Source of the DNA: Ulota crispa
Taxonomy: Eukaryota > Streptophyta > Bryopsida > Orthotrichales > Orthotrichaceae
Direction: 5' to 3'
Length of the DNA: 64,000 nucleotides
Assembly (NCBI GenBank): GCA_963920765.1
Contig: OY987242.1
Coordinates: forward strand, 26,126,002-26,190,001
A model generated the notes under the pieces. The model saw only the letters and a list, made by a program, of their open reading frames with translations, had not been told where the DNA came from and made no database searches. The translations under genes and the position numbers were made by a program. This document shows positions 4,910 to 57,400 of this stretch, piece by piece (position 1 is the first letter of the stretch; each line of letters begins with the position of its first letter).

Positions 4910-5523
4910 TAAGGTGGCAGCACCCATAAGCGTCAAACTAAGGATTTTGGAGTAGGAAAATCAATTGATGAACTTTGAAATAATATTGTCAATGGCATCA
5001 ATTTCAAAGTTTCAATTGCAAGCATTTGTTCACAAAGATTTTTCTAAGTCCAAAATCATTAAAAATTGTATGGTTGTGTGTAAGAGGTGCTAAAAACAAT
5101 GCTTAATGGTTCTTAACCCTTAAACAACCAAAAGGACCTTTGTAACCAATACAATACGGGGTATTTTTCTTGTATTTGGAATGGATCCACACCTCTACTA
5201 CATTTAAGATCAACAAAAAAGTTGGAGAATAGATCAATGCGATTCTAGTGAGCTACTTGAGATCCCAAATTACAATTTCTTATTGATAGCAAATGGCAAT
5301 TATAAGTCAACGTATATACTATGCCCTATGGTTGCTTCAGGGTTAAATGGTGAGATGGGGCACTTAAAATCATCATTTTAGTCACCCAAAATCACCACTT
5401 TGTCACCCATAACCATCACTTCATCACCCATAGCCGTAACTCGATCACCCACAACCATCACTTTGTCACCCATAACCATTTGATCAGGTGACGCCCATGA
5501 CGGAGATGGGTGTTGCTACCTTA
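4910..5523. repeat. TAAGGTGG...CTACCTTA element in the cofactor B leader intron, with a nested TTAA element
   Basis: Starts with CTAAGGTGGCAGCACCCATAAGC and ends with TGGGTGTTGCTACCTTA, the same terminal words as the 320-bp family. It is nearly twice as long because a TTAA-flanked element (5117-5342) sits inside it. Its right half (about 5370-5480) is a degenerate tandem repeat of a roughly 21-24 bp unit resembling TCACCCATAACCATCAC, apparently expanded from the element end. Confidence 0.6.
5117..5342. mobile_element. TTAA-flanked short element, 226-bp family, copy 1
   Basis: Bounded by TTAA at 5113-5116 and 5343-5346. It starts CCCTTAAACAACC and ends CAGGG. The interior matches the copies at 32303-32528 (opposite orientation, same 226-bp length) and 41348-41579. 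TTAA duplication with CCC-starting ends is the hallmark of piggyBac transposition; no transposase is encoded. Confidence 0.85.
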
Positions 5524-6350
5524 AACCCTAAAAAGAAAACCTTGCAACTTCGTACAACGATTCAAATTTTTCCAGTTATCACCGGCAATATCACAATACA
5601 CAATGTCCTCTAACAAAATTACACAATGCAGTGCACTCCATCCGTACCTCTATGTATCCACTCGAAACAAACAACACGTTTAACCGTCACCGAACTCTCA
5701 CATTGTGTTACAATATTTAACAACAGTTCCTGTACACGAGCATTCCGGATTTAAAACAGACTTATATGTTGTGAAGTTGAACATATAAGCAACTCTATGT
5801 TCTGTGTGAAAACCCTGAGAAGCTGGCATTTGCAGAATCTCGCTTAAACCCTATATAAATAGAAGTAGTCTAACAGAATAGTTAAAGAAGGCAACGTGAC
5901 CAAATCGATTGTGTGATCGATAACTACTTTAGTATCACAGTCTCTTACCTAAGTTCAAAGTTTGTTGAGCGTACTCTGGTTTCGACCAGGTAAGTTTGAT
6001 TCCTAGAGTTCTGAGTCGACTAAGCTTTTGAAGAGAAGAGAATTGGATGACAAAATGTGAAAATGCGGAGAAAAGCGATCGTAGTAGACGAAGAGGTTTC
6101 GACAAAAATTGACAAGGTAGATCAGTGGTGGACTGGGACGAGGAAGAGGACGAGGGAGGAGGTTCAAGTGCAGGAGAAGACGGTTGTAGGGCTGCGGTGA
6201 TGGGACCTGCGGCGACGGGGCCTGCGGCGACAGGGCGGGTGTTAGCAGTTGGGCATGGCCCAGGTAATAGCCTAATAGGGTACGAGCATCTCCACCGGTT
6301 GGTGCTCTTGCAAAGTTCTTCTTCTGTTTGGATCAGCCCTCAACCCTTAA

Positions 6351-7309
6351 CCCCTAAATGCCCAAGGCACCAGATTTCGGTGTCCAAAAAATGTCCAAAA
6401 AATTTCAAGAAATTTTGAAACCCTGTTGAAGCTACAGATTTTATTGTTTTGAGGTTTTTTTCTGTGAAAAAGTTGTGCGTTGAAGTTAGCTACGCTTTTC
6501 AAATTCAACTTCCTCCATATCTTATTCCATTTATTTTTGGTGGAAGGTTAACTACAAGCATACATTTTCTATCATGAATAGTGTCGTGAATAGTTTCATG
6601 AATAGTGTCGTGAATATTGTCATGAATAGTGTTGTGAATAGTGTCACACAACCTATGAGAAGTTGCCACATTGAAAAGACGGGCATCAAGTTGAGCAAAA
6701 GGTGAAGATTTCCCTTAGGCACTCCCTTGGGCAATAAGGGCCTTTTTACTGAAATTTTGACATCTAACAAAATCTAAAAGTGCTTTTAGACTAATTTCAC
6801 TTGGAATGTCTTTGTTATAGAAATTAGGATCCTTTCACAATTGAATTTTCTTTCATTCATAATGATTTTTGGTCAATAATTGAAGTTGAAAATTTCTTTG
6901 TATAAGACGGTTGTGTTTTGACAATTGCATTGCAGGCTCATTTGTGAAATTGTGGTTGTGGATTTGGAAGAGGGGCCATTGGTTTTGAAGTAACAACAAT
7001 AAACACTAAGGCATTCTAAGTGGTTGTCTCCCAATTTTGTATCTAAAGGTTGCCAATTTGCATTAGAAGTTTCGGGCAACTCAAAAAAAAAACAAAAATT
7101 CCATAGTCATCATCATTCAATCACAAATATTTTAAAATCCGCGCGGCCATTTTGGATTCTTTTTGGATAGTGCCATCTAGAAACCTTGAAGTTCAAGATC
7201 CAACGGTTACAATTTTATTTTGATGTTTAATAATGATCTTACGAAGATAATTCAAAAACTTCAAAACTATCTTCTGAAAACAAGAAAAACACCCTTGGGC
7301 ATTTAGGGG
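6351..7309. mobile_element. TTAA-flanked element, 959 bp
   Basis: TTAA at 6347-6350 and 7310-7313 bracket a 959-bp segment whose ends are a perfect 17-bp inverted repeat, CCCCTAAATGCCCAAGG. No long ORF. The interior contains a small repeat of GTGAATAGTGTC-like words (6575-6650). Non-autonomous piggyBac-like element by its ends. Confidence 0.85.
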
Positions 7310-7310
7310 T

Positions 7311-7628
7311 TAAGGTAGGAGCACTCATAAATGTCAAACTAAGGGTTTTGTATATGATGACTATTAATAAACAACTAGCAAGTTATAGGGTCCTATTAGG
7401 ATCAGAAAAAAAATAAGTTTGCACTTTTGGATGTATTATTTGGATACCGTGAGAATGAGTTGTGAATTTTTAAAGAGTAAACTGCCATTGCACCCCTAAC
7501 CACTTCTAAGATTTCATGTTCACATGTTGAACATCCTTGTCATTACATCTATTCACTTCCACAGATTTTTCAAGATTTCAGAGGTGACGCTTATGGGGAC
7601 ACTGACTCTTATGGGTGTTCCTACCTTA
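7311..7628. repeat. TAAGGTAG-family MITE-like element, copy 2
   Basis: Begins directly at the TTAA that closes the preceding 959-bp element (TTAAGGTAGGAGC) and ends GGGTGTTCCTACCTTA. The interior is the same 320-bp family as the copy in the first cofactor B intron. Confidence 0.85.
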
Positions 7629-7659
7629 AGCACCGGGGCCTATTGTCGTGAATACATTG

Positions 7660-7709
7660 GCTAAGTGTATTTGCCAGGGACGTTTTTTGTCCCTGTCGGC
7701 ATTTAAGGG
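7660..7709. mobile_element. Solo terminus of the 345-bp TTAA family
   Basis: Sequence ending GTCGGCATTTAAGGG followed by TTAA (7710-7713), preceded by GGACGTTTTTTGTCC. This is the inverse of the left end of the elements at 11536 and 19844. Only this terminus is recognisable, so the rest has been deleted. Confidence 0.55.
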
Positions 7710-7713
7710 TTAA

Positions 7714-8258
7714 GGTCCTTTGATCTCCACCCATGCTTTTCAAAAAGGTGTCCTTGCACTCCAACGTGTCCCATAAATAATCAATTGATCACTTATCAAA
7801 GAAAGTAGAGGATAAAATTCATTAAACTTAGGTTAAATAGTGTCTTGAAGGGCCCTTGCTAGACACAGTCAAGATCTATCTTTTGTATTTTTGATGGTAG
7901 AGTGACACGCACCCTAAGATTTAAGCACGTAAGGAAAATTTGGATAGAACTAGATAGAATATATGACGGGTGCACGTTCATCCATAAAGTCTACTTATAT
8001 TAGCAAACTTCATCCAAAAATTGGCAAACTTGGTGCTTAGCTGGATAAAATTTGGGCAATATCATCCATTTTTTCACCAAAATCTTCTAGTGTTATAATT
8101 GCCAATTGAAGTTTGAGATAAGATTTAAGAGAATTTTTGTCAAGAAAATTTACCCTACACTTGGTAGGACAGAGTGTCTTGAGAGGGTTTTGAGAGGGGC
8201 CTCAACACTTTTCATCCACTTTGAGTGTGTTTAAGCCACCAATGGAGATACCCTAAGG
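7714..8258. repeat. Repeat of the 52.1-kb family interrupted by a GGTAGAGTGACACGCACC element (about 7867-8160)
   Basis: The outer parts (GATCTCCAC...CTTGCTAGACAC and GGTAGGACAGAGTGTCTTGAG...GCCACCAATGGAGAT) match the element at 52093-52700, where the two parts are contiguous. The intervening roughly 290 bp match the dispersed repeat at 34950-35205 and 50865-51112. ACAC flanks both junctions and may be its target duplication. Confidence 0.7.
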
Positions 8259-9593
8259 TAGTATGCTCAAAAATTGCCACTTTGAGAGCTGGTTTGCCTT
8301 TTCAAGGACTTTATGAGACATGAAGATGATTTATCTAGTTTTCAAACAAATAGAAAAGTATGCCAAATGTAACACAAATTTTTCCATGTTTTTTGAAGCT
8401 TTGTTGATTTTTCAAAGTATTCCATAATAGGCGCCTAGGCGCCTATTTGTGACTCTAGGTCTCCCATAAATAGTTTTCTTGCAATTTGTAAAGAGATGAG
8501 GTAAAACAAAGGAAAATCATTGGCTCTTGTAATAAAATATACCTTTATTTCCATGACTTAAAGAGATCTATTCAAGAATCACTTCATAATGAAGCTAGGT
8601 ATTTTTTGGGCCTTATGGGGCTAGACTCAAAGTTGCTTGATTTGATTTTAGCCAATGCACCTACCTCCCTCAAAAAACTATTCATACTTGGGAGGGCATG
8701 TAGGCTCTTGACAATATACATTACCAAAAAAAAGCACTACTTCATGGGTGATTGCCACAAGAATGACATGTACTACATTTTGTCCCCCTCACCTTGTGCG
8801 GCTTGTTTTTGACTTATAACTTTTGCAAAAGAAGTCACATTGACTTGTCCTTTTAGAACAATGTGAGCATGCAAATTATTGACATTTAGTGATTTTTTGG
8901 TGTTTTTTATTTTTAAGCAGCCTCCAAATGGGTGTCTACCTTGGCCATTTTGGGGGTTTTTAGTACTATTTTGGGCCCAAAAAAAGCTTTTCTGGGGCTG
9001 TAAATCAAGGATGTTGTTTATGGAGCATGCTTACACGCATTTCTAGAAGGGTTTTGCGAAATTACAAATTCCATGGCATCTACATTGTCTCAAAGTGGGC
9101 ATCCTATCTCCCTTTGTTGGCAAAATATGAAGAAATTCCTTAGCAAAGCAATTGTACCATGTGAATGTGTTTAATGGGTTCTCAAGTGGCCAATTTTTAT
9201 TTTATTTTTTTGAAGTATTTTACCATTTTCTAAAAAACAAGAAAGAAATTGGCTTTTTGTTGGTGATTTTGTTTTGTGCATAACTTTTAGAATAAAAAAT
9301 TTCTAGGTCTGAATTTTCATAGGTTTGCTATTTTAAGTGCTTTACAAATTTCCCATATTTTATTTTATTTTTTAAAAAACTATTCCAAAAGCTCGGTAGT
9401 ATTGTTAGTACTACCAGTACTAAGGGTGTTTGAGACAAAATAGAGAGGTCATTCTTGCAACTACCCTCATATCCATTCCTAAGCTACCTATGGGATGCTT
9501 TATGTGAGAGGGTTGCAATTTGAGGTAGCTACCTACCTTACTGCACATAGGTACACACTAGTTTCTTGACATTTTACAATATGTAAGGTAGAA
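8259..9593. other. AT-rich stretch, no gene recognised
   Basis: The only open frame of note is 8606-8812 on plus (68 codons, Cys-rich C-terminus). It has no recognisable domain, and the nearest upstream sequence is repeat. A short palindrome of GTAGTACTAC type lies near 9410. I see no supportable gene. Confidence 0.4.
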
Positions 9594-9901
9594 GCACCCA
9601 TAAGCATTAGTGTCTCCATAACTATCACCTCTGGAATCTTGGAAAATTTGTGGAAGTGAATAGATGTAATTACAAGGATGTACAACATGTGAACATGAAA
9701 TCTTGAAAGTGGTTATGGATGCAATGAAAATTTGCTCTTTAAAAATTCACAACTTATTCTCATGGTATCCAAATGATACATTCGAAAGTGTAAACTTATT
9801 TTTTTTCTATTCCTAATAGGACCCTATAACTTGCTAATTGTTTATTTATAGTCATCATGTTCAAAACCCTTAGTTTGATGTTTATGGATGCTCCTACCTT
9901 A
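9594..9901. repeat. TAAGGTAG-family MITE-like element, copy 3 (opposite orientation)
   Basis: Starts TAAGGTAGAAGCACCC and ends GGATGCTCCTACCTTA. The interior is the reverse complement of the copy at 7311-7628. Confidence 0.85.
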
Positions 9902-9944
9902 AATGCTTATGGATTCTACAATAAATCTCTTTAATAATTATTAT

Positions 9945-10376: not shown

Positions 10377-10651
10377 ATCCTTTCTGGGCTTGGCAACAAC
10401 AACAAAATTGCCAAAATACAAACTAGTGGTGTCTAAGTCATAAATTATGTGAAATCCTAGTACATAGAGAGTTGCATGCACCTTAAATGACCAAGTGATG
10501 AGTCATGAGGTAATATTCTAGGGTAAGGCAACCTAATTGTTAAGCAACCTAAATGCAATATTGATGTACGTTTTTTGGCATGGGAAATATCAAAGCTTTT
10601 CCACCCTGGCCCCTCAAACACGTATATGCAAGAAACTGAGCCAGGCCAATG

Positions 10652-10958: not shown

Positions 10959-11017
10959 TCCAATTTGCTGGCACAACTCAGCTGGAAATCTTAAAACCGA
11001 ATCATCTCTGACACGAC

Positions 11018-14000
11018 CTACAAGAGCTCCTTTTCAGTCTGAACAGGAAGAAGCTTCACATAAGCCATTTGAGTGTACCCGTTGAAAGCAAGTTCAGGAA
11101 CACCCTCCAGACCAAGTTCCTCAAAAAGTGTCCTCTCTTGCACGAGAGGAAGCACAGTGCGTGCAGGGTCATACCGAGTCTGATGTGTGAGAAGAGGGGT
11201 AGCAACAGGGGGAACCTCCCAATACACGTCAAGGCTCTTGCCAACGAATCGTCCGTTCTCGAAGTGTTGAGAGTGCGGGATTCGTCTGCTGATGTGGCCG
11301 AAGTTATCACGGGCGTAGCCTCGCACACCCCACCAGTCGTTCTCCTCACCACAAAGCTCACTCATGTTGGTGGCTTTCTCCCAGCGCCCTTGTCGTTCGT
11401 TCCGGATTTCGGCTTCTTTTCCTTGCTCTGAACAATCGTGGCCTCCACCTAGTCATCAAAAAGCAATAGAAAAGTTAAGTTCCAGTGTCTCTTTGTATCC
11501 ATAGCCTGAGAGTTGCAACTGATTAGCCACATTAACCCCTAAACATCGGCACAAACGAAAAACGTCTATTGCCTCCAAAAAAAACTTCATATCCCAGAAA
11601 AAGATCAATCTGATTTTTTTCAGAAGTGATCATAAAAGCATAGTGCATCGTGGAAGGCAAAAATTTACCTCTTGAGATACATTCATTTTGTTTTGTAACC
11701 CAAATTGTGATACATGGTGTTAGCTCCAAAGCTGCCCTTCTTGCAATTTTCATGAGGGCACCATGCACTGTTGACTTTTCCAACTTTTTGAAGCAATACT
11801 ATTGGTGCACATGTGCAAAACACTGTAGAATGCTACAGGCAAGGCAAGCCACGGTGATCCATCCATCCTTTAAGAGTTAACCCCTACAGGATGTTGCCTA
11901 CCAAAAGAGTTGACTGTAATCATATGAGAATCATTTAATACTCAAAGAAATGACTTGATGATAAATGCCAAAGTTTCCCCAAAATCCTAGTTGACTAGTA
12001 GTATGTCTGCAACTTAAAATTTACAGCTCCAGTAAGGAAGTCTGCTCATATTCCGCTTAGGCAATAAAACTGCTAACCACCAAATGTACTCTACTGGTAC
12101 ATGTTGTTTTTCATAACCTTTCAACAATGTACAATTGATGTACATTTGAGGAGGTCGGTAGTTTTAGAGACCTATGGCCTTTTCACTTGAAAATTTCATA
12201 ACTAATTCCAGAAAGCTCCAAAAATATGAAACAACTTGGGTTAGATGTCAATTCTTCTTGTCTTTCAAGGAAAATTTACTGAAAAAAAGTTCAAGAAGTT
12301 TCACCTCCCCAAAATTCAGTTTCAGCCCTTAGATGGACGGTTTATGAGCACACTACCTTAGGACTCATGTGCTATTCAAACACCCCCATCCGTATACAAC
12401 ACAAGAGAGCGTATACAACATAACAACATCCTTTAGGGGTTAAAACATCTCCAATGGTGCGGATTTTTGAAGACAGCAATGGAAACCTCCCACGGGCATG
12501 TGATTTTGCCAAGCTCTGTTTCCCTGTAGCTACTGCAGTGATCCGGGAAATGCAGTACCACAAGCAATAGTGAAATTTGTCAAGCGTTATTTCCTCACAA
12601 GGTTGTGCTTATTGGACCTTATTCATCTAAATCCAAATCCGCAAGTAGGCAAGGCTAAATAGTACCCAATTGTACCCGTCAAAACATAATTCTCGACAAT
12701 TGTAAATCTTAGGAAACTTATCCCAGAATTTTGTCAAGGAAGATGCAGCATTGTTGCAGGACTGTTTTTTCCCCACATTTTCCGCAGTTTGGCAGTTTGG
12801 AAGATTGGGGCCTTATTTAGCTGGAGATGTTCTTAGCCCTACTTGATGTCGTGTCTGAAGTTTTATTCGATGTAGTCGAACACAATAGACAACCTCTTTA
12901 AACATTACAGAAAATTCCTGGATAGTCTTGAGTATTCTAGGACAATGCTTGAGTGATAGACAAGGAGATCGGGTAGATGTTGTGTCAAACATATTAGATG
13001 TCGCATTTGATTACCTAGGAGGACTACCCTGGCATACATACACTTTTCATGACAATGTTTATGTTGCAGAGCATTTCCACTGATGGGAAGCGGAGAAACG
13101 AATAACCACCACATTCAGAGCAAAATATTGTACTCACCAGAAACATGATACTGATCGCAGATTTGGCGCATGGAATAGTGGTCACCTGTGCCTGTGTCAT
13201 AATTGTCTTCAAATACGAGGTGTTGGAAGCCAAACTCCTGTGCAGCTTCAATCCTGCACTTCACACTAGCACATATTATTTCAGATGACTTGACACTAAT
13301 ATTTCTATCAAACCTGATGCTAACTAGTACATTTGCTGTATATTACACATTCAGCTCCATAGATCGAAGGTTAAAGTACCAAGAGTAACCCTCAGCAATC
13401 AACATCAGAAGCAATTCCAAAGTCATTTGGTCCCCAAGACACTTCGTTCCCTGTATTCGCAACATTAGTTCACAACTTAAGATAGATATATCATGAAACA
13501 AAATGCCTTGATAGCAGATTTTGAACTTTGAAGCTTGGCAAGGGAATGAATTTTACCACACAGATGATAAATTACTGGGCAACTGACTGAACGGAACTCA
13601 TGGACCATATTTGCAAAGCTTTCTTTTAGGGAAAATTTCATGGATACCCCTGACAGTTTGCAATATTTTCATAGATACCATTGCTTTTCAGAAATATCAC
13701 AAATACCCTTGGACCAAAAAATTTAGGCGTTTGTTTTGTTGTGCATGCCACTTTCCTTCTTCCTTTGTGCGCACGCACAACAAGAAAGAAGTAGTGTGCG
13801 CACAAAAGAAGAAGGGAAGTGGCATGCACAACAAAAAACGCTTGAAAATTTTGGTCCAAGGGTATCCGTAAAATTTCAGAAAAAGCAGGGGTATCTATGA
13901 AATTATTACAAACTTCAGGGGAATCCATGAAATTTTCCCTTATTTTAAAGACCCTTATTGGGATCTAAACCCCAAACCATACGCATGACTGTAGCCTCAG

Positions 14001-16184: not shown

Positions 16185-16275
16185 AAATTTAGCAAAATAA
16201 CTCCCTCAAACATTCACATCATAAGGAGCAGCTCACGAGAGCTTCCGTTTCAAAAGCTTCGCTGCATCTACTCGT

Positions 16276-19843: not shown

Positions 19844-20193
19844 CCCCTAAATGTCGGCACGGACAAAAAACGTCCGTTGCCTTTGAAAAAAAACCCTATA
19901 TCCCAAAAAAAGATTGATTTTGATCTAATTTTTTTTCCAAAAGTGATCATAAAAGCATAGTGCATCATGCAAGGCAAAAATTTACCTCTTGAGATCTATT
20001 CATTTTATTTTGTAACACAAATCGTGATACATGGTGTTAGCTCCCGAGCTGCCCTTCTTGCAATTTTCATGAGGGCATCATGCACTATTGACTTTTCCAA
20101 CTTTTTGAAGCAATACTAGTGGTGCCCATGTGCAAAATATTGTAGAATGCTACAAGCAGGGCAAGCCACGGTGATCCATCCGTCCTTTAAGGG
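19844..20193. mobile_element. TTAA-flanked element, 345-bp family, copy 2, with readable empty site
   Basis: TTAA at 19840-19843 and 20194-20197; ends CCCCTAAATGTCGGCAC and CGTCCTTTAAGGG. The host repeat reads TTCAT-TTAA-[element]-TTAA-ATATATTA, while its sibling at 28891-28906 reads TTCATTCAAATATATTA. Removing the element with one TTAA restores exactly the sibling length. Confidence 0.9.
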
Positions 20194-26813: not shown

Positions 26814-27162
26814 TCTTCTAGTGTACGGCTCCAAAAAAATATTTTGGATCATAAAAGAAAGACATTTTTCCATTGATTTTTTTAGGAGTGATCATAAACT
26901 CATGGTCCATCATGGAAGGCAACTAATTACCTCATTGGATGCATTTATATTTTTAGGTTATCAATATTATGAGAAGATTAAGAGACATGGAGTTAGGTCC
27001 CAAGTTGTCCTTCTTGCAATTTTCATGAAAATATCATGCATTGTTGATATTTGCAACTTTAGGAAATAATATTATAATTGCTAGGAGCTTGTGAATATTC
27101 TACAAAACATAATAGACTATTGTAGCCAGGTTGGTCACAATTACTAGCTCAGCATTTAAGGA
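26814..27162. mobile_element. TTAA element, 345-bp family, copy 3 (old)
   Basis: The interior (CTTCTTGCAATTTTCATGA, GTGATCATAAA) matches 11536-11876 and 19844-20193 with many substitutions. The right end is GCATTTAAGGA followed by TTAA (27163-27166); the left end has lost its CCC motif. Confidence 0.65.
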
Positions 27163-27637: not shown

Positions 27638-28488
27638 GGAAATTTCATGGATATTCTTGAAATTTGTAATATTTTCATATATACCCTTGCTTTTCAGAAA
27701 TATCACAAAAACCCTTAACCCCTAAGCACTCAATTGACCATTTTCTGGTTGTTGCCCGTTTTTCACGGGCTGCCCAAGATGAAAAAAAAAATCTTTAAAA
27801 AAAAACTTTTTTTTGTCATAGGAAATTAAGTTTACTTTCCAACCCAACTTGAATCATGTCAATCCAAGTTAGACTCCATCAAGGAGAATTTTTCAAAAAC
27901 AAACACTTCAATATTTGCTAGTGTTGTAAAATTTACTATTTCGGGAAACTAATGATGTTCTCTCCTTTGAAAAGATTGCATTTTCAAAGTTTACAATAGA
28001 TTGTCTGTTTTTAACCAATCATACCAAATTTTAAAATCTATGCATAAAATTTGTAATTTTGGTGAATATTAAATGGTTAATGCTTCTAAATTCATTAAAT
28101 AAAAATCTGAAACTTTTTATGAACATTTGACTACATGGATAATTACTAAACATCGTGATTCTTGTTTTCTCTTTTGAAGCAAACTTCATCAAAGTTACAT
28201 AAGTATTATTTTAAAATACATCTATGTTTTGCCCTTACCCCCTTGGGTGTTTAGGGGTTAAACTAAAAAAATTGGGTATTTGTTTTGTTGTGCATGCCAT
28301 TTCTCTTCTTCCTTTGCATACGCATAACAAGAAAGATGTAGTGTGCGCACAAAGGGTGAAGGAAGTGACATGCACAACAAAACAAATGCCTAAACTTTTT
28401 TGGTCCAAGGGTATTTGTGATATTTCTAAAAAAGCAAGGGTATCTATGAAAATACTGCAAACCTCAAGGGTATACATGAAATTTTCCC
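27638..28488. repeat. GGGAAAATTT foldback MITE, copy 3, split by a TTAA element
   Basis: The left part 27638-27714 and right part 28262-28488 together make the same element as 13629-13939. The break is at ACCC-TTAA, where the intact copy reads ACCCTTGGACCAAAAAA and this copy, after removing 27719-28257 and one TTAA, reads ACCCTTAAACTAAAAAA. The two are equal in length. Confidence 0.9.
27719..28257. mobile_element. TTAA-flanked element, 539 bp, with readable empty site
   Basis: TTAA at 27715-27718 and 28258-28261; ends CCCCTAAGCACTC and TTGGGTGTTTAGGGG. It lies inside an older foldback MITE, which dates it as the younger insertion. No transposase ORF. Confidence 0.9.
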
Positions 28489-28659: not shown

Positions 28660-29490
28660 GTCCTTTCTCATTTCATCCTCAAACTTTTACTTTTTTTGAA
28701 TGAATCTTTTACTTTTTACATTTTTTCTTCTCATTCTCAAATTTTTATTTTTTGGAATGAATCTTTTACTTTTACATTTATTTACTTTTCATAAACAATA
28801 TCTTTTACATTTGAAACGAGTATATAAAGAAGAAAAATAACCAAAAACATTATCATTCTATCATTTCCATATCACACTTTCTTTTTCACCTTCATTCAAA
28901 TATATTAAATATCATCTAAACAATAGTTGGATTTCATTTTATTCTTATTAGATTTCTCATCTCTAATCTACTGTAGTTAAAAAGATGGCCGATCATTATG
29001 CTTTGCAAAGTATTTATAAATTCTTAAGCTGCCAAAATGTTATACCAACTACGGTGCTAGAAGATGAGGCCTTTCAACGACAAAAATCACCACCAAAGAC
29101 TTCACCACCAAAGATTTCACAAGAAATTGTGCAACAATCAAAGGAAGCTCATACAACAACCAAAGAGGTGCCAAACAACGTCATGAAGCAAGAACATCAA
29201 TCAACCTCATCCTCAGTCAAGGCTGATATTACAAGTTTTGTACTTCTATTTGATATTTTGAGCAATTTTTAGATAGTACAAAGAATGTAAAAATATATTT
29301 TTTGTATGATTGATAAAGACATGTTTTTGGATTTCTAAGGAAGTCCCTTTTATGTGATACACATAAATAAATTTGGTTATACAACCTTGAGTTTTGTATC
29401 TAATTGTTTGTGAACTAGTGTCTACTATCTACCTTAGTCTGAATTGGGCCAAATTGCAAGGACCACCTCCAGGGACCGACTCCCTAGCAG
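28660..29490. repeat. ORF-bearing repeat, copy 2 (intact)
   Basis: Same order as 19679-20940 without the internal insertion: pyrimidine-rich left part, TATATAAA at 28821-28828, ORF 28985-29272, and the GGACCACCTCCAGGGACCG block at 29461. Confidence 0.75.
28985..29272 (+). CDS. Hypothetical 95-residue protein in a duplicated repeat
   Basis: ORF beginning MADHYALQSIYKFLSCQNV; the middle is rich in Ser, Thr, Lys and Gln (KTSPPKISQEI...), and the end is hydrophobic (FVLLFDILSNF). A TATATAAA motif lies about 160 bp upstream. I recognise no domain. The second copy at 20278 is frame-shifted, which argues against strong constraint. It may be a captured gene fragment carried by a mobile element rather than a working gene. 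Confidence 0.4.
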   Translation: MADHYALQSIYKFLSCQNVIPTTVLEDEAFQRQKSPPKTSPPKISQEIVQQSKEAHTTTKEVPNNVMKQEHQSTSSSVKADITSFVLLFDILSNF

Positions 29491-32302: not shown

Positions 32303-32528
32303 CCCTTAAATGACCATAGGGCATACTATATATGTTGACATATAATTGTCATTTGCTACCAATAAGAAATTTTAATTTGGGATTTCAAGTAGCTCACTAT
32401 AACTGCATTGATTTATTCTCAAATTTTTTTGTTGATCTCAAATGTAGTAGAGGTGTGGATCCATTCCAAATACAAGAATAATACCCCATATTGTATTGAT
32501 CGCAAAGGGCTTTTTGATCATTTAAGGG
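32303..32528. mobile_element. TTAA-flanked short element, 226-bp family, copy 2
   Basis: TTAA at 32299-32302 and 32529-32532; ends CCCTTAAATGACC and GATCATTTAAGGG. Reverse orientation relative to 5117-5342 and the same 226-bp length. Confidence 0.9.
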
Positions 32529-36800: not shown

Positions 36801-39414
36801 CTCAGCACTAAAAAAATGTCAAGCTCTTGGTGAGGAATTCTTTGGAGTATCAAAAGGCTGTATAATGAGCAACTAACAATTGTTGATATTTATTTGCACC
36901 AAGCAATGAAACAAAGGAAACAACAAAATTGTGGGTGTGCCCTCATTTGTAATTACCTTCAGACTAGCCATTGTTGGTAGTTATTAAGTAATCTCATGCC
37001 CTTGTTTATAATCCTCGCCTAATCTTTACCATAATGAACCTCAAGCGAGGAGGAAAACTAGCATACAATAGGGTTCCTTCGTAACATAAGACACAGCACG
37101 GTTCAATAGACATATACAAAAGCAAGCTAATAAAATATGAAGTATTTCAGTATCAACTCATTCAAAAATCAAGAAATCCTCCCCTTAAAATTCGAAGAAA
37201 AGTACAATATTTCAAATAGAAAATCCACCTGTAACTTCTCGATGGGTATTCCTGCAGCTATCGACACCAGAAGATGATCCTTTGTTAAGGCGGGCTTCAT
37301 CTCAGTAACAACCTTCTCCGCTGCACAAACGCAAATTTTCCAGAAGGCAATCAAAAATCACGGTAAAAACAAGACAATCATCCTGATTACCATAAAAAAT
37401 ATATATCATGGTGTAGTAACATTTCCAAAGTTGCAAATTGCGTTCAAATTTGTACTATTACAAACAAGAGATTTGATGTTTGGTAAACTACAAACAAAGA
37501 CCACAGCGAGTACAAAAGAAAAGCTTAGGAAATTGAACAATACCTACTTGAGGTTTCACTGCAAGGATGAGCACGTTACTTAACTCTGCAAGCTGCAATT
37601 CCCAGTAAATCATGTTTCCGGATTAATTGCTGAAACCAAAGGGGTAACATTAAAAGCAGACTACAAAGTTCATGAACTGCTAACCTCATGATAAGTACTT
37701 TCAATGAATAGTAGAACTTGTCTAATTAAATGGAATTAGGATTGGGATAGTATATGCCCTTAATAGAGAGGTTTGGCATTAATCATTCATAAACCCCAAG
37801 GCTTTTGGTCAAATTGAAGAACAACGTATTTTTTTAGAGCTTTTTCCTATTCTACATTATTTACATGCTGATTGAGGGTTTGCTGGAAAGATCGGACAAT
37901 ACAATTCTATGTGCCATAGGGTAAATTATGATGCAATCACAAAGATAGGCTGCTTCTGCCATTTGAACTTTGCAAATTTGTTGGATTATCAAATGGATAT
38001 TTGTTTAGGGTGGAAGCTAATCATTAAATACACAAATAGGGGCCCAAGAGTGAGAGGATCACTTTTCCCCCATTTCTAAAGAGAGCCTTTGCAAACTATG
38101 TCACTAGAGAATAGAAAATTGGTCACTGCTTGTGCACATAGGTGAACATCTTTCCAAAACTAGAATAGCTAAAATATCCCAAATAGAACTTTGTGTAACC
38201 ACATCTTTCTTGGATATAAGCCAAATGATCCAAAAACAAATGCAGCAACATACTAGTGTGAAACACAAGACACCTCTATAAAATTCCTCCCACTTAAGGT
38301 TTGGTTAGTACAAAGGAAATTGCGTAGAAATTAACCACAAAGTGGTCAAACAAACCTTAACTTGTTGATAGAAACCTCAAGTTGTTTATAGAGGTCAATT
38401 TTAAATGTAGTAAAACCTATTCTACTTGAACACACCAAAGTAGGATATGCATTTAGAGACAGGTCATTCATCAATTAATCAATAATAGAGACCAATTCTA
38501 TGTCCACTAGAACCAGACCTGAGTAAATCAATAACACCTATGACATGGATAGGATACAACTAGGACCAGGGGTACAATATGCACTTGAAATACAATAAAA
38601 AGTCAACCAGATGAAATGACAAAAAACCATTTAAACTTCGAATTTACTGGAAAACAACCGGACATGATTTTAAAAGATACAATCATACTACTACAATCAC
38701 ATTGACCCTCTCTAATATCGCATTTGACCTCTTTGATGTCACATCTCCACTCTCTGTGATATTATAAATACAATTACATTGACCTCTGTAACACAACATC
38801 TTTAGTCTCTGTCATACTATCATAATACTAAAATCACAATGACCTCTTTAACATCACATCTGATCTTTGCAATATCACATCTTCAGTCTCAGTAAACCAC
38901 AGTCAAACCCTAAACCTTGGGTAGTGTAGCAGGCGCCAACCGCTAGTTATAATATAAATACAAACAGCATCCAGTGCATGCGTGTGAAAAATTGATTGTA
39001 AGGTAGCAGCACCCATAACCGTCAAATTAAGGGTTTTGAACATGATGATTATTAATAAACATCTAGCAAATTATGGGATCCTATTAGCAAGAGAAAAATG
39101 ATAAGTTTGCACTTTCAAATGTATTATTTGGATACTGTGAGAGTAAGTTCTGAATTTTTAAAGAGCTCACTGCAATTGCACCTAATACCAACACTAAGGT
39201 TTCATGTTCATATGTTGTACATCCTTGTAATTACATCTATTCACTCCATAGATGTTTCAAGAATTTCGAGGTGATGGTTATGGGTACAGTGATGGTTATG
39301 GGTGTTGCTATCTTAAATGGGGAATGCTAGAGAAGCTCAATATTTTCCAGGACACTGTCTTAAACCGGTTATTCATCAACAGAGGTCAACTTTGATAAAA
39401 GGACCAAGAAGTTG

Positions 39415-41347: not shown

Positions 41348-41579
41348 CCCTTAAAGGACCGAGGAGCCCTTTGCGGCCAATACAATATTTAGTATTTTCT
41401 TGTATTTGGAATGCATCCACACCTTTACTATATTTGTGATCAACAAAGAAGTTAGAATACAGATCAATGCAGTTCTAGTGAGCTAGTTAAAATCTCAAAT
41501 TAAAAAATTTTATTGGTAGTAAATGCTAGTTATACGGCAGCATATTTACTACGTAATACGTAGAGCGGTCCTTTAAGGG
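41348..41579. mobile_element. TTAA-flanked short element, 226-232-bp family, copy 3
   Basis: TTAA at 41344-41347 and 41580-41583; ends CCCTTAAAGGACCG and CGGTCCTTTAAGGG are a 13-14-bp inverted repeat. The cleanest member of this family. Confidence 0.9.
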
Positions 41580-42637: not shown

Positions 42638-43556
42638 CCCCTAAATCCTTGGGGCCTTTATTTTGTCAAAAGACACTCAAAACTGCCATTTCTATTGCAA
42701 AGAGTAAAAAATTTAAAAATTGGTCTTTTTGCATGTCCAACCGTAGGATCTTGTACTAGACTAGTATAAGAATGTCAAAACAAAAATTCAAAAGCTTTGA
42801 TTGCACAGATTGCAAGATATTTGCATTCAAAGTGTAAAAAACATACTTTTTTGCACCTTGCATGACTAGACTATTTGACTGAACTTTTTTAACTTAGAAA
42901 TTTTGCACCACAGAGTTTTGAGGTTTATTTTTGTATGGTGGGAAATTGAGTTGAGAATCTTTGGAAAAAAACCAAAACAAAAAATACTTAATTTTCATAC
43001 TTAAAAAAACATTAGGTAGAAGAAGGTATGAGATTGAACAAATACTTAAATTGTTAATAACCTTGCAATGGAATTGAAACACAATAATCCCAATGGTGAG
43101 ATTGTTCTAGCAAGCAAACTTCACTCTCTCCAACAATTTTTTTTGAAAAAATGTTAAAATTGCATTCAAAAATGAAGTTTATAAGTTATTTTTTCAAGAA
43201 GATACTTGAGTTGCCCAAAAAATAAGATTGTCCATAACTTTCTTATAACTAGTCCAAATGGAATGGATCAAAGCTTTAGCTTTAAACAGAACTATAACCT
43301 ATGAGAAAATAAACAAAAATTAAAAAAATTCAAGTTTTTGTAAAAATTTTTTACTACCCAATTTGCATAAATTTTTGCTTATTGAGGCATAACTTTTGCT
43401 TTTGGGCATTGATTGGAATAAAAATTATATTCCCCAAAAGCTAATGTGTTTTCCTATTTTCAAAAAAGTTTCAAAAAACCAAAACAAAAATTGAAGCTGT
43501 AGGTACCTGCCCAAAATCCCATTTGTCCTCCGAGGGGACACTCAAAGATTTAGGGA
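42638..43556. mobile_element. TTAA-flanked element, 920-bp family, copy 1
   Basis: TTAA at 42634-42637 and 43557-43560; ends CCCCTAAATCCTTGGGGCC and AAGATTTAGGGA. Inverted relative to 44223-45143, with which it pairs along its whole length. Confidence 0.9.
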
Positions 43557-44222: not shown

Positions 44223-45143
44223 CCCCTAAATCCTTGAGTGTCTCCTCGGGGGACAAATGAGATTTCGGGCAGGTATTTATAGCCTTAATTTTTGTTTTCA
44301 TTTTTTGAAACTTTTTTTGAAGATAGGAAAACACATTAGCTTTTGGGGAATATAATTTTTATTCCAATTCATGCCCAAAAGCAAAAATTATGCCTAGATA
44401 AGCAAAAATTTATGAAGATCGAGCAGCAAAAAAAAATCACAAAAATTTGAATTTTTTTGTAAATTTTTTTCTTCTCATAGGCTATAGTTTTGTATACATC
44501 TGAAGCTTTTATTCATTCCATTTGGATTAGTTATGAGACAGTTATGGACAATCTTATTTTTTGGGCAACTCAAGTATCTTCTTGAAAAAATAACTTATAA
44601 ACATCATTTTTGAATGCAATTTTAACATTTTTTCAAAAAAAATTGTTGGAGAGAGTGAAGTTTGCTTGCTAGAACAATCTCACCATTGGGATTATTGTGT
44701 TTCAATTCCATTGCAAGATTATTAACAATTTAAGTATTTGTTCAATCTCATACCTTCATCCACCTAATGATTTTTTTAAGAATGAAAATTAGGTATATTT
44801 GGTTTTTGTTTTTTTGAAGATTCTTAGCTCAATTTCCCACCATCAAAAAATAAACCTCAAAACTTTGCAGTGCAAAAAATTTAAGTTAAAAAAGCTCAAA
44901 GTCAAATAATCTAGTCATGCAAGGTGCAAAGAAGCTTGCTTTTTACAATTCAATTGCAAATATCTTGCAACTTATGCGGTCAAAGTTTATGGATTTTTGT
45001 GTGCACATTCTTATACGAGTCTAATACAAGATCCTACGGTTAGATATACAAAAAGACCAATTTTCGAACTTTTTTACTCTTTGTAACAAAAATGACAGTT
45101 TAGAGTGTCTTTTGACAAAATAAGGGCCCCAGGGATTTAGGGC
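44223..45143. mobile_element. TTAA-flanked element, 920-bp family, copy 2
   Basis: TTAA at 44219-44222 and 45144-45147; starts CCCCTAAATCCTTGAGTG and ends CCCAGGGATTTAGGGC. Diverged inverted copy of 42638-43556. Together they make a 2.5-kb palindrome. Confidence 0.9.
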
Positions 45144-45384: not shown

Positions 45385-46317
45385 CCCCTAAAGGACCAGG
45401 GGTGTTTTTTGAGAAAAAATCTCAGAAACTGTCAAACTTTTGGTGCATTGCCCAAAATTTAAAATAAAAACCTTTTTTCTCGATTTCAACCTTATAGATA
45501 AATTAATGTGTGCAAAAAAATTCAGCCCATTTGACCACGCGCATTTGAAGTGAGAAAAATAGCTTTTTTTCATTCCTGCAAAACAAGGTCAGCAGACTTT
45601 GACCCTTTCTAGAGTAAATTTTTTGCTCTACACAAATTTGAGCTTTTTTACCACTCACAAGTATATGATGTTGGGTTTACTCATGAAATTTTCCAAATGC
45701 AAATATAGAGTTTAGCTTATTCTGAATCTCCCTCAAATGCAAAGAGGTTTAGTGAGTTGGCAATACATTAGTCATTCTTTCATGATTTCTTGTGCAATGT
45801 GGAAGTCTTTTATTTGAAATTTGGAAGGTGAAAATTTGGAGACAAGCATTTGGAATATGTGAAAAAAAGTTTCAAGAGCTTTAGATTTATAGATTGAAAG
45901 ATAACATGGCTTGAAGTTAGAGGATTTTTTTTTTCTTGAAGCTGCCCAAACATAGTTAACAAAATTTGACTCCCTTTAGAATGTGATGTGAGTCCTCAAT
46001 TTGTTTATTTTTTTGACAATTGTACACCATGTCTTTTTAGTTACATACTTGCCAAATTTCAAAAGTTAATGAGAGTATTAGCATAAGATTCTCCAAAGAT
46101 GCTCAAGCTGCCTAAACTACCCAATTTCTTTTGGGCAACATAACTTTTGAACCGAGCATCCAATTGGGAAAAAATTAGATTTTTACTTGGGAGATACATA
46201 CTTGCACCTTTTGTAACAATTTTGAGAACATCTAATAAAAATTAACTCTATATGACCCTACCCGAGTTCTCAAGTGGCTGTTGAATAGCCACTTGGTCCT
46301 TTAGGGGTTAAAAATTT
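45385..46317. mobile_element. TTAA-type element, 933 bp
   Basis: Ends CCCCTAAAGGACCAGGGG and TTGGTCCTTTAGGGG. The right flank is TTAA (46318-46321); the left flank has mutated to TGAA. No coding capacity. Confidence 0.8.
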
Positions 46318-47660: not shown

Positions 47661-48598
47661 CCCTAAATGCTCAAAACTATCTCCTTGGGGGACAAATGAA
47701 TTTTGCTCATGTACCACCAGTTAAACTATTGTGTGTGATTTTTAGAAACTTGTATGGAAGGTGGGGAAATTTAAAGACCTATGTGGGTATCTAATTTTTT
47801 CTTGATTCTAATATTTGACAAAGAAATTATCAAGAGTTTTTTGAAACTAAGGGAAAAAGGGCAGTTTAGATAGGGCATCTCCATTGTAAGTGGGTGTTGA
47901 CTCCAAAGAGGGTCAGCTCTTATGGGCACAAGGTGTGGACACTTGGACAAAGGGGAGTGGAGCGGAAGGAACCTATCTTGGGAGACTCCCAACCCTTCAT
48001 TCTTTTTGCCCCTTGTAACATTTAGTACTCGAGTTGGTACTTTAACTTTTTGAGCAAATTGTGTACTTGTTTTTTTATTGTTTTTTATCTAAAATGTATG
48101 AGGCTAAGATTCCTTAATTTTTATCATTTGGATAAAAGTAATTCAAATTTCTAAAATTTATATAAAGCCTCCTTTTCTACCTAGTGTATTTGCAAATTTC
48201 ATGACCTTCCAGCATTCAAAAAGTTTTTGAAGTATGTTTTACACTTCCAATTCACTTAAGTATTTTTCCACACATACCTAACAGTTTTCTACATGGAGTA
48301 ATTAAACCTTGAATTTGTGTAGAGCATTTTATTTGCTACGAGAGTGGTCAAAAGCTTCTAAAATTATGGGCAAGAAGAAAAAAAAGTTTTTTTTGGGTTA
48401 GTAGTGAATATATCACCCCTCTAGTCCACTTTATTTGAAATGAGCTGAATTTTTTCCCTCATGTACCTTTTGTAGTTTGGGGCAAGATTCTACTAGTTGG
48501 ATTTCCAAAAGAATTTTTTTTATATCTTTCTTTTTATTCCCCTAAAAGTGGCAGTTTTCAATAACTTTTACAAAAAGAAGGGCTTGGGCCTTTAGGGG
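47661..48598. mobile_element. TTAA-type element, 938 bp
   Basis: Left end CCCTAAATGCTC with a decayed flank (TTATT); right end TTGGGCCTTTAGGGG followed by TTAA (48599-48602). Contains a GGGCATCTCCATTG motif near 47874. Confidence 0.7.
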
Positions 48599-48602
48599 TT
48601 AA

Positions 48603-51419: not shown

Positions 51420-54400
51420 ATGAAGCCTGCCGACATGGGCAACTGGGGCTTACTCCAGGTTGTGAGAGAGGGTGGCAGGCTGTTGCGTCACCATTTCGGT
51501 GACTTCATGCCCGCCATCGTCAAGGGCATCCTGCCCGCCTGCTTCATCAACGAGGTGAACGCTCAAATCAGGCACAAGGTTTTCGTTTCACCTCCGAGGG
51601 TCGATACTCAGGTCTCTCTCTCCTCTCCCTTTGCATGACTGAATTTGTGCCTTCGCCTGCGTGGATCCTTCAAAACATGACTAAATTGCAAGCGATAGGC
51701 ACTTTACAGCAATTCGAAACCCCTGATCTACAGTTCTCCTAGTGTCGAGCGCTTTGTGCCATTAGAGCATCTCCACCGGTCCTGGCACGTCCCAAGGTTT
51801 TCAAACGCGATATTCGTTAATTTGGGAAAACGGTACATTTTGGGACTTTCAGAAAGCGAGACAGGAAGTTTGAGGTGATCTCCTCAAAACCAAGCTCAGC
51901 GTTTTTTTTGTACACGTGCCCTCACTTGAGAGGAGGGATTTCCAAGGGAAAAAATCTTAGTGGCTCAGTTTGAATCTGATACCTTTGAATATGGTTTAAA
52001 GTAACTTTTTGGGTTTGAGGTGGAGTACAAAATGGTACCTTTGTTTTTTCCAAATTAACAAATATTGTGATTTCATCTATTTCTAAAGGGGCCTCATGTT
52101 CCTTGATCTCCACTCATGCTCTATAAAAAGGTGGCTTCAGTTGGCACTTCATAGAAATGTCTTTTTGGGCTTGGTGGGGCTATGTCCCCAGACTTGCCAG
52201 AGGCGGTTTTGTTAATAAGAAAAATTGGTGAAACAATGGGGTGGGGAGTAGTGGAGTTGGCACTTCAACATGTCCCGTAAATAAGCATTTGACCATTTAT
52301 CAAGGATAGTAGAAGAGAAAGCCCACCAATAATGATGAATAGTGTCTTGAAGGGCGCTTGCTAGACATGGTAGGACAAAGTGTCTTGAGAATCTCAAGAC
52401 AATTTGTCCTACCGTGTTTAGCAAGGGCCCTTCAAGACACTATTCATACTAAGTTTAGTGAATTTTATCCTCTACTTTCCTTGATAAGTGGTCAAATGAT
52501 TGTTTATGGAACATGTTGAAGTGCAAGGTCACCCTTTTGAAGAGCATGGGTGAAGATGAAGGGGCTTGAGAGCCAGCCAAAACATATGAAAAACTATGAA
52601 AGAGCCTGAATAGATGGAGGTGCTCTAAGAGGGACCTCAAAATGCTTTTCATACACTTTGAGCGTGTTTGAGCCACCAGTGGAGATGCCCTTAATATGTT
52701 GCTAGCTTTCGAGGTTAGGATGTTCAGAGAGAACAAGATGTTTCATCTTACTCCATTTCGTATTTCTGGGTTGGAATTACCCTAAACCAGAGGTTTATCT
52801 TGCCTTTCTGTAGTAGCTCTTGTCCAAGCTCTTAGTACACGTGCAGACAAAGATTGAAGAACTTGCTTGAACTAGAAATCCGAAATTAAGGAAGAAACAC
52901 GGTATCACGCCATGGGACGATATATTTGCAAGAGATCAGGTAAAGTAACAGCACCCATACATGAGCAGTCCCCAAAGTGGAGCCATACTTTTGAGGTGTT
53001 CATCATTCATTGTGAACTTAAAGTGGAGCAGTGCATGTCCCTTGCACAAGAAAATCTTATCACATGTCAATTGCTAAATTGTTGTGAGATGACTGGGATT
53101 GGGTCCGTCAAGCACATGTATAGAAACACATCAAAGCAATTTCAAGGGTAGTGTAGAGTTGCTAATAGGGACTTATGAGCTGTAGCTTTGCCCTTTAATA
53201 TAAAATAATATATATTACTTTTTTCCACAAAAAATACGTTCCATAATAGCTTATTAAAAGGCTAACCCTTCAAAAAAATTCCTGAATTTTCCGAGACTCT
53301 GAAGGACCCTAAACCCTTAAACGCCCTTAAACGCTCAGGTATGGGTGCGGTTACCTTATTCGGAATGGAAATGATATTGGTGGGTTTCAAGAGACTCTAT
53401 TAGAAGCACACCATTGGACAAATTACTTTTTTGCAAAAGGCCAGCTAAGGTAGAAATACCATAAACAATTACTGCTTGATAATGGCAGAGTAGAGTGTCC
53501 TCAAACCAACACGAGCTGGCTTTGAAAGAGATTTCAGAAAGATGCTCTTTCCTTGCATTTGATTGGTTCAAATTTATTTTGGAATAAGGTTTTAGAGGTA
53601 ACCATTTAACCCCTAAATGCCCAAGCCCTCTCTGAGCTTCTTAGACTTTCCATGAAACTAAACAATCAATCAACCTCTTCATGAATTCCATCAAGTTTTT
53701 TTCAATTGTAACCATACAAGCTTAAATTAAACACGTTAGAGATTACATGGAAAAAGAAAACACAACAATATCATTTGTAGTTTGAAAGATTATAATGTTT
53801 GAACATGAGGGTGTTAAAACTGCAAAAGTGACTTAAAGTCTTCCAATCCTTGTTTCACATGTCAAATCCAAAAAGTTAGTCACCTTAAAAATATGAGGTT
53901 TAAGGTCATTACATGCCTAACTCAAATCAATTTACGGTTTTGAAAATCTACTCCTACATTACTTTTAAAAGGATTTCTAATGTGGATTTTTCTCCAAGCT
54001 CTAGTGTATTTGAGGCTCATTTTCAAGATCTTCCAACACTAAAAAACTCAAGATTGCAGTGGACACCCTTGTACAAAATCTCAAGTAGAAAAATCCTCAA
54101 CTTTCATTTTCAAAATCAGATTTTTGATATTGAAAGTAGATTTCAAAACAAACTTATATTGAATATAAAAAATTGAAAATAATAATTTGATGAGGTTTTA
54201 TCCATCTTCAAAGTTTCCCCGTGACCCAAATCTGGTCGCTTGAGCATTTAGGGGTTAAGGTGCACCTATGGATCCAAACCCTAAATCCACATTTATATTA
54301 CATAAAAAATTCATTTTTGAGTTTTTTTTTTTTTTTTTTTTTTTTCACAATCCCATATCCTTGTTTCTCCACAGATTGAGCTTAATTTCTCAAGAAATTC

Positions 54401-57400
54401 CCCATATCTTCAGGCTAAACTTCCTTATTTTAACCGTTTATGGTATTTCTACCACCTTAGGGTTTGTGCAAGGGGGGGGGGTTGAGTGATTGCAAAATTG
54501 AAGCGTTGCAAACTGGTCAATCAGGGGTCGACGGAGGAGACGGCGTGGAGATTCCAGTAAGCAGACCTGATTCTGCAGATGCTGGTGATGGCGGTGGCGA
54601 ATCTCTTCATTCTGGTGGGCGGTCTGGTGATGTTCGACAAGCTGACGAACGTTGTGTACAGCGACGGGGATGTCGAAACAACAACAACGAGGCAAACGGA
54701 ATCGCTGATCGACTCCATGAAACTCGCTTTGGTCGAGAAGGACGTCGAGACAGGTGAGCCTGGTGAGGTGGCCTCGTTCTTCACTTCCAGTGTTTGGAGG
54801 AAACCGGTAGAACCGGTAGCCGGTGGAAATGGCCAAAAAAAGAACCAGTTGAACTTTGGAATTGTAAGATAAAAACTGTGCCAGATTTTTCTAGAGAGTG
54901 TCAAATTGTACGTTAAGTATAAATATGGGTTTTTTTTGGTATAAGGTAAGAGATCCATAAATCGATCATTTAAAGTCAACCTAACTCATCAATGATAGTA
55001 ATAATTATTTGAAAGAACATGCTTTTCATTCTTAAATAGGAAACACTTTTGGAACATGGTTAGTTTATGGACCTCCTATCTTACTAACTTGAAAAATTGG
55101 TTGAAAATGTGAAAGGAAGGATATGAGCCATTGAAGCTCAGTAATCTCCTCAAATTGTACACATATATTAACCTTTGAAATCCTTGAGCAATTGTTACAA
55201 TCTAGATTGTATGATTAATTTATGTACAATTTTGCAATTTGAGGATAAAAGTTGGTTAATTTGGGAAAAACCTTGATTTTGGTAATTATGAATTTTTCAT
55301 TTTTAAGAGTCTTTAGGTGATTTAGAGTGAATTTTATGATGATTTTACCAAGACATTACATCAATGATGAGATACCTTGAAGGAATTATAAAAAAACTCA
55401 CTTTAAGTCACCAAAATATTCTCAAAAATGCAAAATTTAGTTTGCCAAAATCCATTTTGGGAATAGAATATTGTGTTTTGGATGCATTTGATTTTGTTTA
55501 TTAGGTTATTGTTTGCAACTATAGTTGCTTGATTGGTTCTCTTGTGTTCTTTTGGTGTCCAACTATGATGAGGTACATAGGGCAATAATTATTGCATAAG
55601 AAAAGATTGAGTAGTTTGTGCAAAGAAAATGTTGAAATATGACTCCCTTTCTGGGTTTTTGATTAATTGTCAACCTAATTCTTGGATTGAAGCTCCTCAA
55701 TTTTGATACCAAAATATCCAAAAAAAAATTTGTAAGGCATTTTTATGTAAATTAGATTCATATTGCGAACACCACTGCTAACATCAAGTGAGGACCTGCT
55801 CTAAGTGCCTCTTAAGTCCATATTCTAGAAGATAAACAAAGTGCTTGTAGGTGTTTGTTTGATTTGTTTCTTGAACTCATCCAAACTGATGCTAAAATCT
55901 TTAAATACAATTGATTCCATGAAACGGAAATGAATAGTATGTTGTGGAAAGGCTCAAAATACAAAGTATGCTAAAAGCAATTGAAACAAAATGTTTAAAA
56001 CACTATATTCGTTAAATTGGGAAAAATGGAGGCACCCTTTTTTTACTCCACCATAAACTTAAAAAGTTACCTTAAACCAAATTGGAAGGAACCAGATTCA
56101 ATTTGAGGCACTAAGATTTTTTCCTTCAAAAATCCTTCCTCTCAAGTGAGAGCACATGTACCAAAAAAAACGTTGTGAGCTCAGTTTTAGGTGGCCACCT
56201 AAATTCTTTGAAAGTCCCAAAATGTACTCTTTTTCCCAATTTAACGAATATGGTGTTTTAAGAAGTCAAAATTATCAAGTGATATGGATCAAGTGAAGGC
56301 ACTCAAGCAATATGACAATGAAAAACAATCTTGGAAGTAATATCAACAAAGCCACCTTGAAACAACATACGTGTAGTTACGAGATTCCAAATAGATTTTT
56401 AGAACTAAGGCTTGAAGAGTTCTTGTTGGAGCTTTTGTCAACGCAAATGGTTGTTGTAACTCACAATCAAAAGTTGCTCTTTCCAGTACTTGAATTTTGG
56501 CCTCTAAACTGATCTCAAAGATAACATGTCTCAATTTAACAAGTGATGTCAAGCGTTTGCTTGTTTCTTTGCTTTATCTCAACCTCAATTTACTTTGCTC
56601 CTTTTTGCACAAAAAGAATTGTGAAAAACCACTACAGTTTGAGAGTCTTTTTTCTCTTTTGTGGAACAATAAGCCCCTTTTTTTCTCCTTGCTTTCAGTG
56701 AGAATGTTTGGAGGAATTTTGATCCTTGCTTTAAGTGAGAATGGTTGAAGCAATTTTGATCGCGTTGATCCAAATCCGTCAAAAGTCACAAAATCCTGTC
56801 AAAAAATTTGGAAAGAAAATAACATTGGGTGGTGTGAAAGCTCCTTATTTGTTGATCTCTTATCTTTTGTGTAAGTTTCCAATACGAATGAGCGTGTGGA
56901 ACACGTTTCTACACCTTCAAATATGCAAGAACACTTTTGAAATTTTTTGTGACAAAATGCTACTTTGTATGAGAAAATTCAAGTTGCTCCTTTTGCAAGG
57001 GAAGAACAACTTGAGAGGATTTGGCTTTTTCTTGAACTTCAAAATTTTCCCCTTTCCCTAAATGCATGAGACACCAAATTCTAATGTAAAAATCACCAAA
57101 ATTTAGTGCTTCAGACATTTAGGGTTTAATCATGAAATTTTTTGGTGTCTCAAACATTTAGGGGTTAATTGCTGTATGATTTTTTTAAAATGTTTGCAGC
57201 AAATCCTGTTCTGCGGACCAGAACAACGGAGAGGTCGTTGTACCATCAATTCTTGAGGACGTCCAAGGGAAAGAAGCTCAAAGCGTTTGTTGCAATCATT
57301 GCATTGTTGATGCTTTACACCACAGGCAACGTAGTTGGTGAGAGCTTCTCGCCTAAGGCAATGGCAACAATGGGACTGCTGTCGTGGATGGCTATCTTGG

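Follow-up and report, generated by a model that had tools for sequence, protein, structure and literature searches.

Which transposition system gave rise to the short elements with CCC(C/T)TAAA ends that lie, mostly between TTAA tetranucleotides, in a 64,000-nucleotide stretch of contig OY987242.1 (positions 26,126,002 to 26,190,001 of the forward strand; hereafter the window)? A preliminary description of the window had proposed piggyBac-type transposition at TTAA, and this proposal is borne out by the TTAA flanks, by the CCCY ends (Y is C or T), by empty sites and by transposase-bearing elements with the same ends elsewhere in the genome. The window segments are almost certainly piggyBac transposons of the non-autonomous kind, and the plant nuclear genome in which they lie is most likely that of a moss. 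The assembly comprises 274.8 Mb, of which ten contigs make up 264.8 Mb, and C11 measures at least 5.8 Mb. The window elements are listed below without strand; terminal inverted repeats (TIR) are given as matching bases out of 14, and L numbers denote genomic loci fetched for comparison.

5117..5342: transposase-less element, 226 bp; TTAA on both sides, TIR 12/14; family with 32303 and 41348; empty site in L052
6351..7309: 959 bp, internal-deletion derivative of the L055/L061 type of transposase element; TTAA on both sides, TIR 14/14
7678..7709: lone right end before TTAA, 32 bp; 87.5% identical to the 19844 family
11536..11876: element, 341 bp; TTAA on both sides, TIR decayed (8/14); 87% identical to 19844-20193
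11881..12439: element, 559 bp; TIR 13/14; back to back with 11536-11876, the TTAA between them being common to both
19844..20193: element, 350 bp; TTAA on both sides, TIR 11/14; paralogous empty site in the window
26814..27162: decayed relative of the 11536/19844 family; TTAA on the right side only
27719..28257: element, 539 bp; TTAA on both sides, TIR 12/14; the transposase-bearing L057 element is inserted in a relative
32303..32528: element, 226 bp; TTAA on both sides, TIR 13/14; 89% identical to 5117-5342
41348..41579: element, 232 bp; TTAA on both sides, TIR 14/14; 5117 family
42638..43556: element, 919 bp; TTAA on both sides, TIR 12/14; 88% identical to 44223-45143, in inverse orientation
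44223..45143: element, 921 bp; TTAA on both sides, TIR 12/14
45385..46307: element, 923 bp; TIR 14/14 (CCCCTAAAGGACCA, as in the L059+L069 transposase element); TGAA on the left, TTAA on the right
47661..48598: 938 bp, derivative of the L059+L069 type of transposase element; left flank decayed (TATT)
53610..54254: element, 645 bp; TTAA on both sides, TIR 13/14
57056..57164: element, 109 bp; inverted ends of about 23 bp (91%), TTAA on the right, left flank decayed

At least fourteen segments bounded by CCC(C/T)TAAA ends, normally between TTAA tetranucleotides, had been described originally, and TTAA was found on both sides of 10 of the 13 full segments, the exceptions being those at 26814, 45385 and 47661. 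The first of these three was placed only by homology, at 70-73% over about 200 bp to 11536-11876 and 19844-20193, and the right end of the second lies at 46307 rather than 46317. What had been called a remnant at 57056 is in fact a 109-bp element with inverted ends, and the element at 11881-12439 was absent from the original list. Thirteen tabulated elements occupy 7,778 bases (12.2% of the window), with a terminal identity over 14 bp ranging from 8 to 14. Three families were recognised within the window, namely 5117/32303/41348 (members 78-89% alike), 11536/19844/26814 (70-87%) and 42638/44223 (88% over 924 columns); the other window elements are singletons.

The ends are far more frequent than expected by chance. 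The window contains 20 exact TTAACCCYTAAA ends, against a mean of 0.04 and a maximum of 1 in 100 dinucleotide shuffles, and the genome contains 39,919 (19,961 and 19,958 on the two strands), against 792 (397 and 395) for the reversed pattern, which gives a genome-wide density of one exact end per 6.9 kb. A looser scan of the window for outward-facing, TTAA-flanked ends with at least 9 of 14 terminal bases matching returned 12 raw pairs, or nine when each end was used a single time, of which one (11536-12439) was a wrong join of two adjacent elements. The same scan gave no pairs in the reversed window and one pair in 50 Markov shuffles combined.

Most genome copies of 6351-7309 that were compared end at fixed positions and at TTAA. 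A search with 6351-7309 yielded 41 matches, that is, the element itself and 40 others at 75-91% identity (40 of 1,975 candidates scored), and 34 of the 40 other copies cover positions 1-959 exactly. A search with 5117-5342 yielded 45 matches (40 of 4,166 candidates scored), in five places with a second copy within about 20 bases of the first. Both copy numbers are lower bounds because only part of the candidates was scored. Target sites were sampled at both ends of the 20 best-scoring among the 40 other copies of 6351-7309, and exact TTAA directly adjoined the aligned end in 18 of 20 cases on the left and 18 of 20 on the right (genome orientation). Of the four remaining flanks, two have an altered element end with TTAA one or two bases off, and the other two read TCAA and TTTA; no clear base preference was seen outside the TTAA. 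Four of the 40 flanks lead directly into another CCCY end, and neighbouring elements therefore share one TTAA, as do 11536-11876 and 11881-12439.

Absence of empty TTAA sites would, according to the preliminary description, have refuted the proposal, and such sites were sought by comparing the flanks of 12 insertions (the 11536-12439 pair being treated as one) with the window and the fetched genomic loci. Paralogous empty sites were obtained for three window elements and for one transposase-bearing element, and two of those for window elements are in the window itself.

13641..13783: TTGG in place of the 27719-28257 insertion (paralogous empty site); identity 118 of 139 bases
28829..28968: TCAA in place of the 19844-20193 insertion (paralogous empty site); identity 120 of 138 aligned bases

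The joined flanks of 27719-28257 also align with L041 (109/136) and L064 (108/140), and those of 5117-5342 align with L052 (107/138), in which the exact TTAA is kept. The transposase-bearing element of L057 is inserted in a relative of 27719-28257; its joined flanks are 84% identical over 467 columns, and the window copy reads TTAG. Every empty copy has space for one tetranucleotide at the junction, without a second copy. The remaining insertions of the 12 gave no match, one-sided matches or, for 53610, two-sided matches ending far from the junction.

Transposases of the piggyBac type were found in the same genome. The PF13843 profile gave at least 120 genome matches with a best E value of 1.3e-73 (116 of 528 candidates scored); the matched stretch is free of stops in 10 of the 120, and most of the matches carry stop codons. 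Wider DNA was taken for 15 of these loci, picked for a high score or few stops, and for two of them the stretch was lengthened further. In L055 the transposase lies within a 5.7-kb element with 14/14 matching CCCCTAAATGCCTA ends and TTAA on both sides, and L059+L069 form an 8.5-kb element with 14/14 CCCCTAAAGGACCA ends on both sides, flanked by TCAA on the left and TTAA on the right. Both elements thus terminate in CCCCTAAA repeats, as the window elements do. Related ends were found in L057 and L058 (CCCCTTGAGGACTA kind) and in L049 (CCCCTCATCGCC/CCCTTCATTGCC), and weaker ones in L063 (10/14); a DDE_Tnp_1_7 transposase lies between the ends in L055, L059+L069, L057, L058 and L049. The similarity of L057 to L058 (89-93%) breaks off exactly at TTAA on both edges, and that of L018 to L049 (90%) breaks off no more than one base from the right TTAA. 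The L058 element was considered as a high-copy host for nested insertions and rejected, since a genome search found no copy other than the element itself and that in L057. In L057, L058 and L063 the terminal repeat of the left end is followed, on its inner side, by short palindromes (e.g. GAGGACACATTGTGTCCTC) that resemble subterminal binding sites.

As for the enzyme itself, an open frame of 363 residues in L054 matches PF13843 (E 3.2e-44), the piggyBac structure 6x67 (E 1.8e-17) and piggyBat 9c0f (E 1.2e-11). Asp residues of this frame are aligned with positions 268, 346, 447 and 450 of 6x67, which are taken here to be the catalytic residues, and a Cys/His-rich tail without a family or domain match follows. 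Two stop-free transposase matches, C1:1180709-1181995 (L053) and C8:19570986-19572215, are each divided by a short intron-like gap; no matching end pair was found in L053, and both loci are candidate host-adopted genes.

Two window elements are tied to individual transposase elements. In the L055 element the right 550 bp are matched by 6351-7309 at 84% and the left 120 bp at 69%, and the same window element has a further match of 583 bp at 83% to L061. In the L059+L069 element both end regions are matched by 47661-48598, one at 74% and the other at 71%. Each of the two thus matches both ends of one transposase element and is therefore read as an internal-deletion derivative. Over its right 757 bp, 45385-46307 has 84% identity with the left end that lies next to the L060 transposase. 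L060 was rejected as the parent of 45385-46307 because the right end of L060 is not clear, and L054 was rejected because an adjoining relative of about 925 bp stands there in place of a clear left end of L054 itself. A relative of the 11536 family in L053 is situated outside the transposase match.

Several observations weigh against the piggyBac assignment. The 15 loci yielded no transposase relative for either the 5117 or the 11536 family, and several other window families have weak or partial matches only. The exact TTAA is present in one empty copy only, that of L052, the others reading TCAA, TTGG, TTAC or TTAG, which is read as later divergence. From TTAA flanks alone, a TTAA duplication is indistinguishable from a TA or TTA duplication with A...T ends. 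Exact CCCYTAAA ends flank a transposase in two firm cases only, and 8 of the 15 loci have no end pair of their own of at least 10/14, the pair in L060+L068 being doubtful. An own end pair of at least 12/14 is present in only 6 of 15 loci, compared with 12 of 206 cross pairs (Fisher 4e-4, at a threshold set post hoc; four cross pairs, L057/L058 and L055/L061 in both directions, had been excluded beforehand from the 206). The pair in L060+L068, which is among the six, may be due to chance, as a second left end, closer by, pairs with the same right end. With the preset threshold of 10 the figures are 7 of 15 own pairs and 64 of 206 cross pairs (p = 0.17), which do not discriminate. The piggyBac loci contain 12 exact CCCYTAAA ends in 143 kb, not denser than the genome mean. 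The link of the short elements to piggyBac rests on individual elements and not on the end-pair statistic. An autonomous partner had been predicted elsewhere in the genome; transposase-bearing elements with CCCCTAAA ends do exist there, but no intact autonomous element was shown among those found, and a partner has therefore been found, but not a working one.

The rival that survives best, itself very improbable, is that the window segments are PIF/Harbinger (Tourist-like) elements with a 3-bp TTA or TAA duplication that happen to sit in TTAA. The genome does hold at least 150 Harbinger transposase matches, and a TTA duplication would look identical if the target were strictly TTAA. Against this, the surroundings of 30 of the 150 Harbinger matches, 104 kb in all, contain only one exact CCCYTAAA end, compared with the 12 in 143 kb at the piggyBac loci (flank lengths differ), neither set being enriched given the genome mean of one per 6.9 kb. 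In the looser scan the 30 Harbinger loci gave three single ends in three loci; no outward end pair was found, and Harbinger was accordingly rejected as the source of the CCCYTAAA elements. A DDE_Tnp_4 transposase lay between ends in none of the 30 loci, viewed with 1.5 kb on each side, and the transposases that do lie between such ends are piggyBac, not Harbinger.

Still less credible is an origin as Stowaway-like Tc1/mariner elements, which duplicate TA and end in ACCCC...GGGGT. Sequence cannot separate a TA duplication from a strict TTAA target, but all four TTAA positions are near-invariant in the 20 sampled copies and the next bases look random, whereas with a TA element the outer two bases should be free to vary. 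Here too the transposase between the ends is piggyBac, although no search was aimed at mariner families. Kolobok and Sola3 are other superfamilies that duplicate TTAA, and descent from either is no easier to credit: the transposases in same-ended elements match PF13843 and the L054 frame aligns with a solved piggyBac, though no search was aimed at Kolobok or Sola3. Chance or telomere-like sequence is just as implausible, for while the ends have the 7-mer CCCTAAA in common with the plant telomere unit, they occur as single units beside TTAA, in inverted pairs, with fixed copy ends and with empty sites.

With the elements taken as non-autonomous piggyBac transposons, a DDD transposase from the larger (5-8.5 kb) elements of the same genome would recognise the CCCY-type terminal repeats, excise the elements and insert them at TTAA, so that each is bordered by TTAA on either side. 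In one account of the piggyBac mechanism, excision proceeds by way of a TTAA hairpin and is free of footprints (PMC7351741), and four-base hairpin intermediates on excision with seamless repair would be expected here by analogy with that biochemistry. The short elements would have been moved in trans, and their amplification would have left tens of thousands of ends.

The system had been put forward as a candidate for an undescribed one; the superfamily and its mechanism are in fact known, and what is unusual is the host, a land plant and probably a moss, and the scale. TTAA on both sides, CCC ends and aligned catalytic Asp residues are shared with the piggyBac superfamily (Trichoplusia ni piggyBac, PDB 6x67/6x68; piggyBat, 9c0f), and in animal piggyBac copies the best-conserved motif of the termini is reported to be CCCTT, with a duplication that is usually TTAA (PMC10813416). 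Unlike known piggyBac, the elements here have a land-plant host and ends that, by our own reading, run roughly as CCCYTNANNGNCC, and the transposase-bearing elements measured 5-8.5 kb. The ends outnumber the transposase matches found, a count that is a lower bound, by hundreds to one. The short elements resemble PiggyBac-type miniature inverted-repeat transposable elements (MITEs) of animals and angiosperms in being transposase-less and TTAA-flanked, but two window elements differ from these in that their terminal regions match, over long stretches, transposase-bearing elements found in the same genome. A grouping of angiosperm MITEs by the features of their ends and duplications has seven superfamilies, of which PiggyBac is one (PMC10004981). 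Two other plant repeat tables show next to no piggyBac, that for C-Fern with 1,230 copies (0.00%; PMC6890710) and that for Stipa with one copy of 75 bp (PMC8319324), and plants are named in general terms among piggyBac hosts in reviews (PMC8086355, PMC10813416, PMC10794571). No report of native piggyBac in a moss was recognised, by title or opening of the abstract, among the matches listed from the open-licence literature. A prior description is possible under the name of the 'Lanisha' transposons of Ceratodon, which are said to be an undescribed DNA transposon superfamily in a moss.

Host genes bear on the identity of the plant. The genome has sixteen dynein heavy-chain matches, which point to flagellated cells and so speak against a flowering plant, and LEAFY matches lie at one place in C4, in two exons reading GLDYLFDLYEQC, in which the Asp is presumably the moss form. 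The genes in L065, L066 and L067 (a dynein locus and the LEAFY locus) have several copies of the 5117-5342 family next to or inside them. In L064-L066 there are 3 exact CCCYTAAA ends in 10 kb, as opposed to 1 in 104 kb for the Harbinger loci, a small sample; the short elements may favour gene-rich DNA. Another repeat in the window, about 319 bp long, is unrelated to these elements and has ends near TAAGGTAGSARCACCCATAA; it lies at 4177-4502, 7311-7628, 9584-9902, 38999-39316 and 57639-57957, of which four copies are 81-88% alike to the one at 7311; the edge of the latter exactly adjoins 6351-7309. A 331-residue open frame at 30022-31017 carries a dual-specificity phosphatase domain (PF00782, E 1.5e-14).

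The elements in the window, where piggyBac-derived short elements make up about 12%, raise the possibility, somewhat short of an even expectation, that such elements form a major part of moss genomes and have so far been filed under other TIR classes, since the usual plant annotation pipeline (EDTA) has, to our knowledge, no piggyBac class. For another moss, annotated with EDTA and RepeatModeler2, 29.13% TIR elements are given, with CACTA as the largest share (PMC11704416), and part of that fraction may consist of piggyBac-derived short elements. A recheck of moss repeat annotation for TTAA elements is suggested. In animal genetics piggyBac is a much-used tool, and introduction of the insect element into plants for the same purpose has been described (PMC10905368). 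A land plant whose genome has at least 120 native matches to the transposase and about 40,000 matching ends offers a natural plant study case, and a test of how short elements outgrow their parents.

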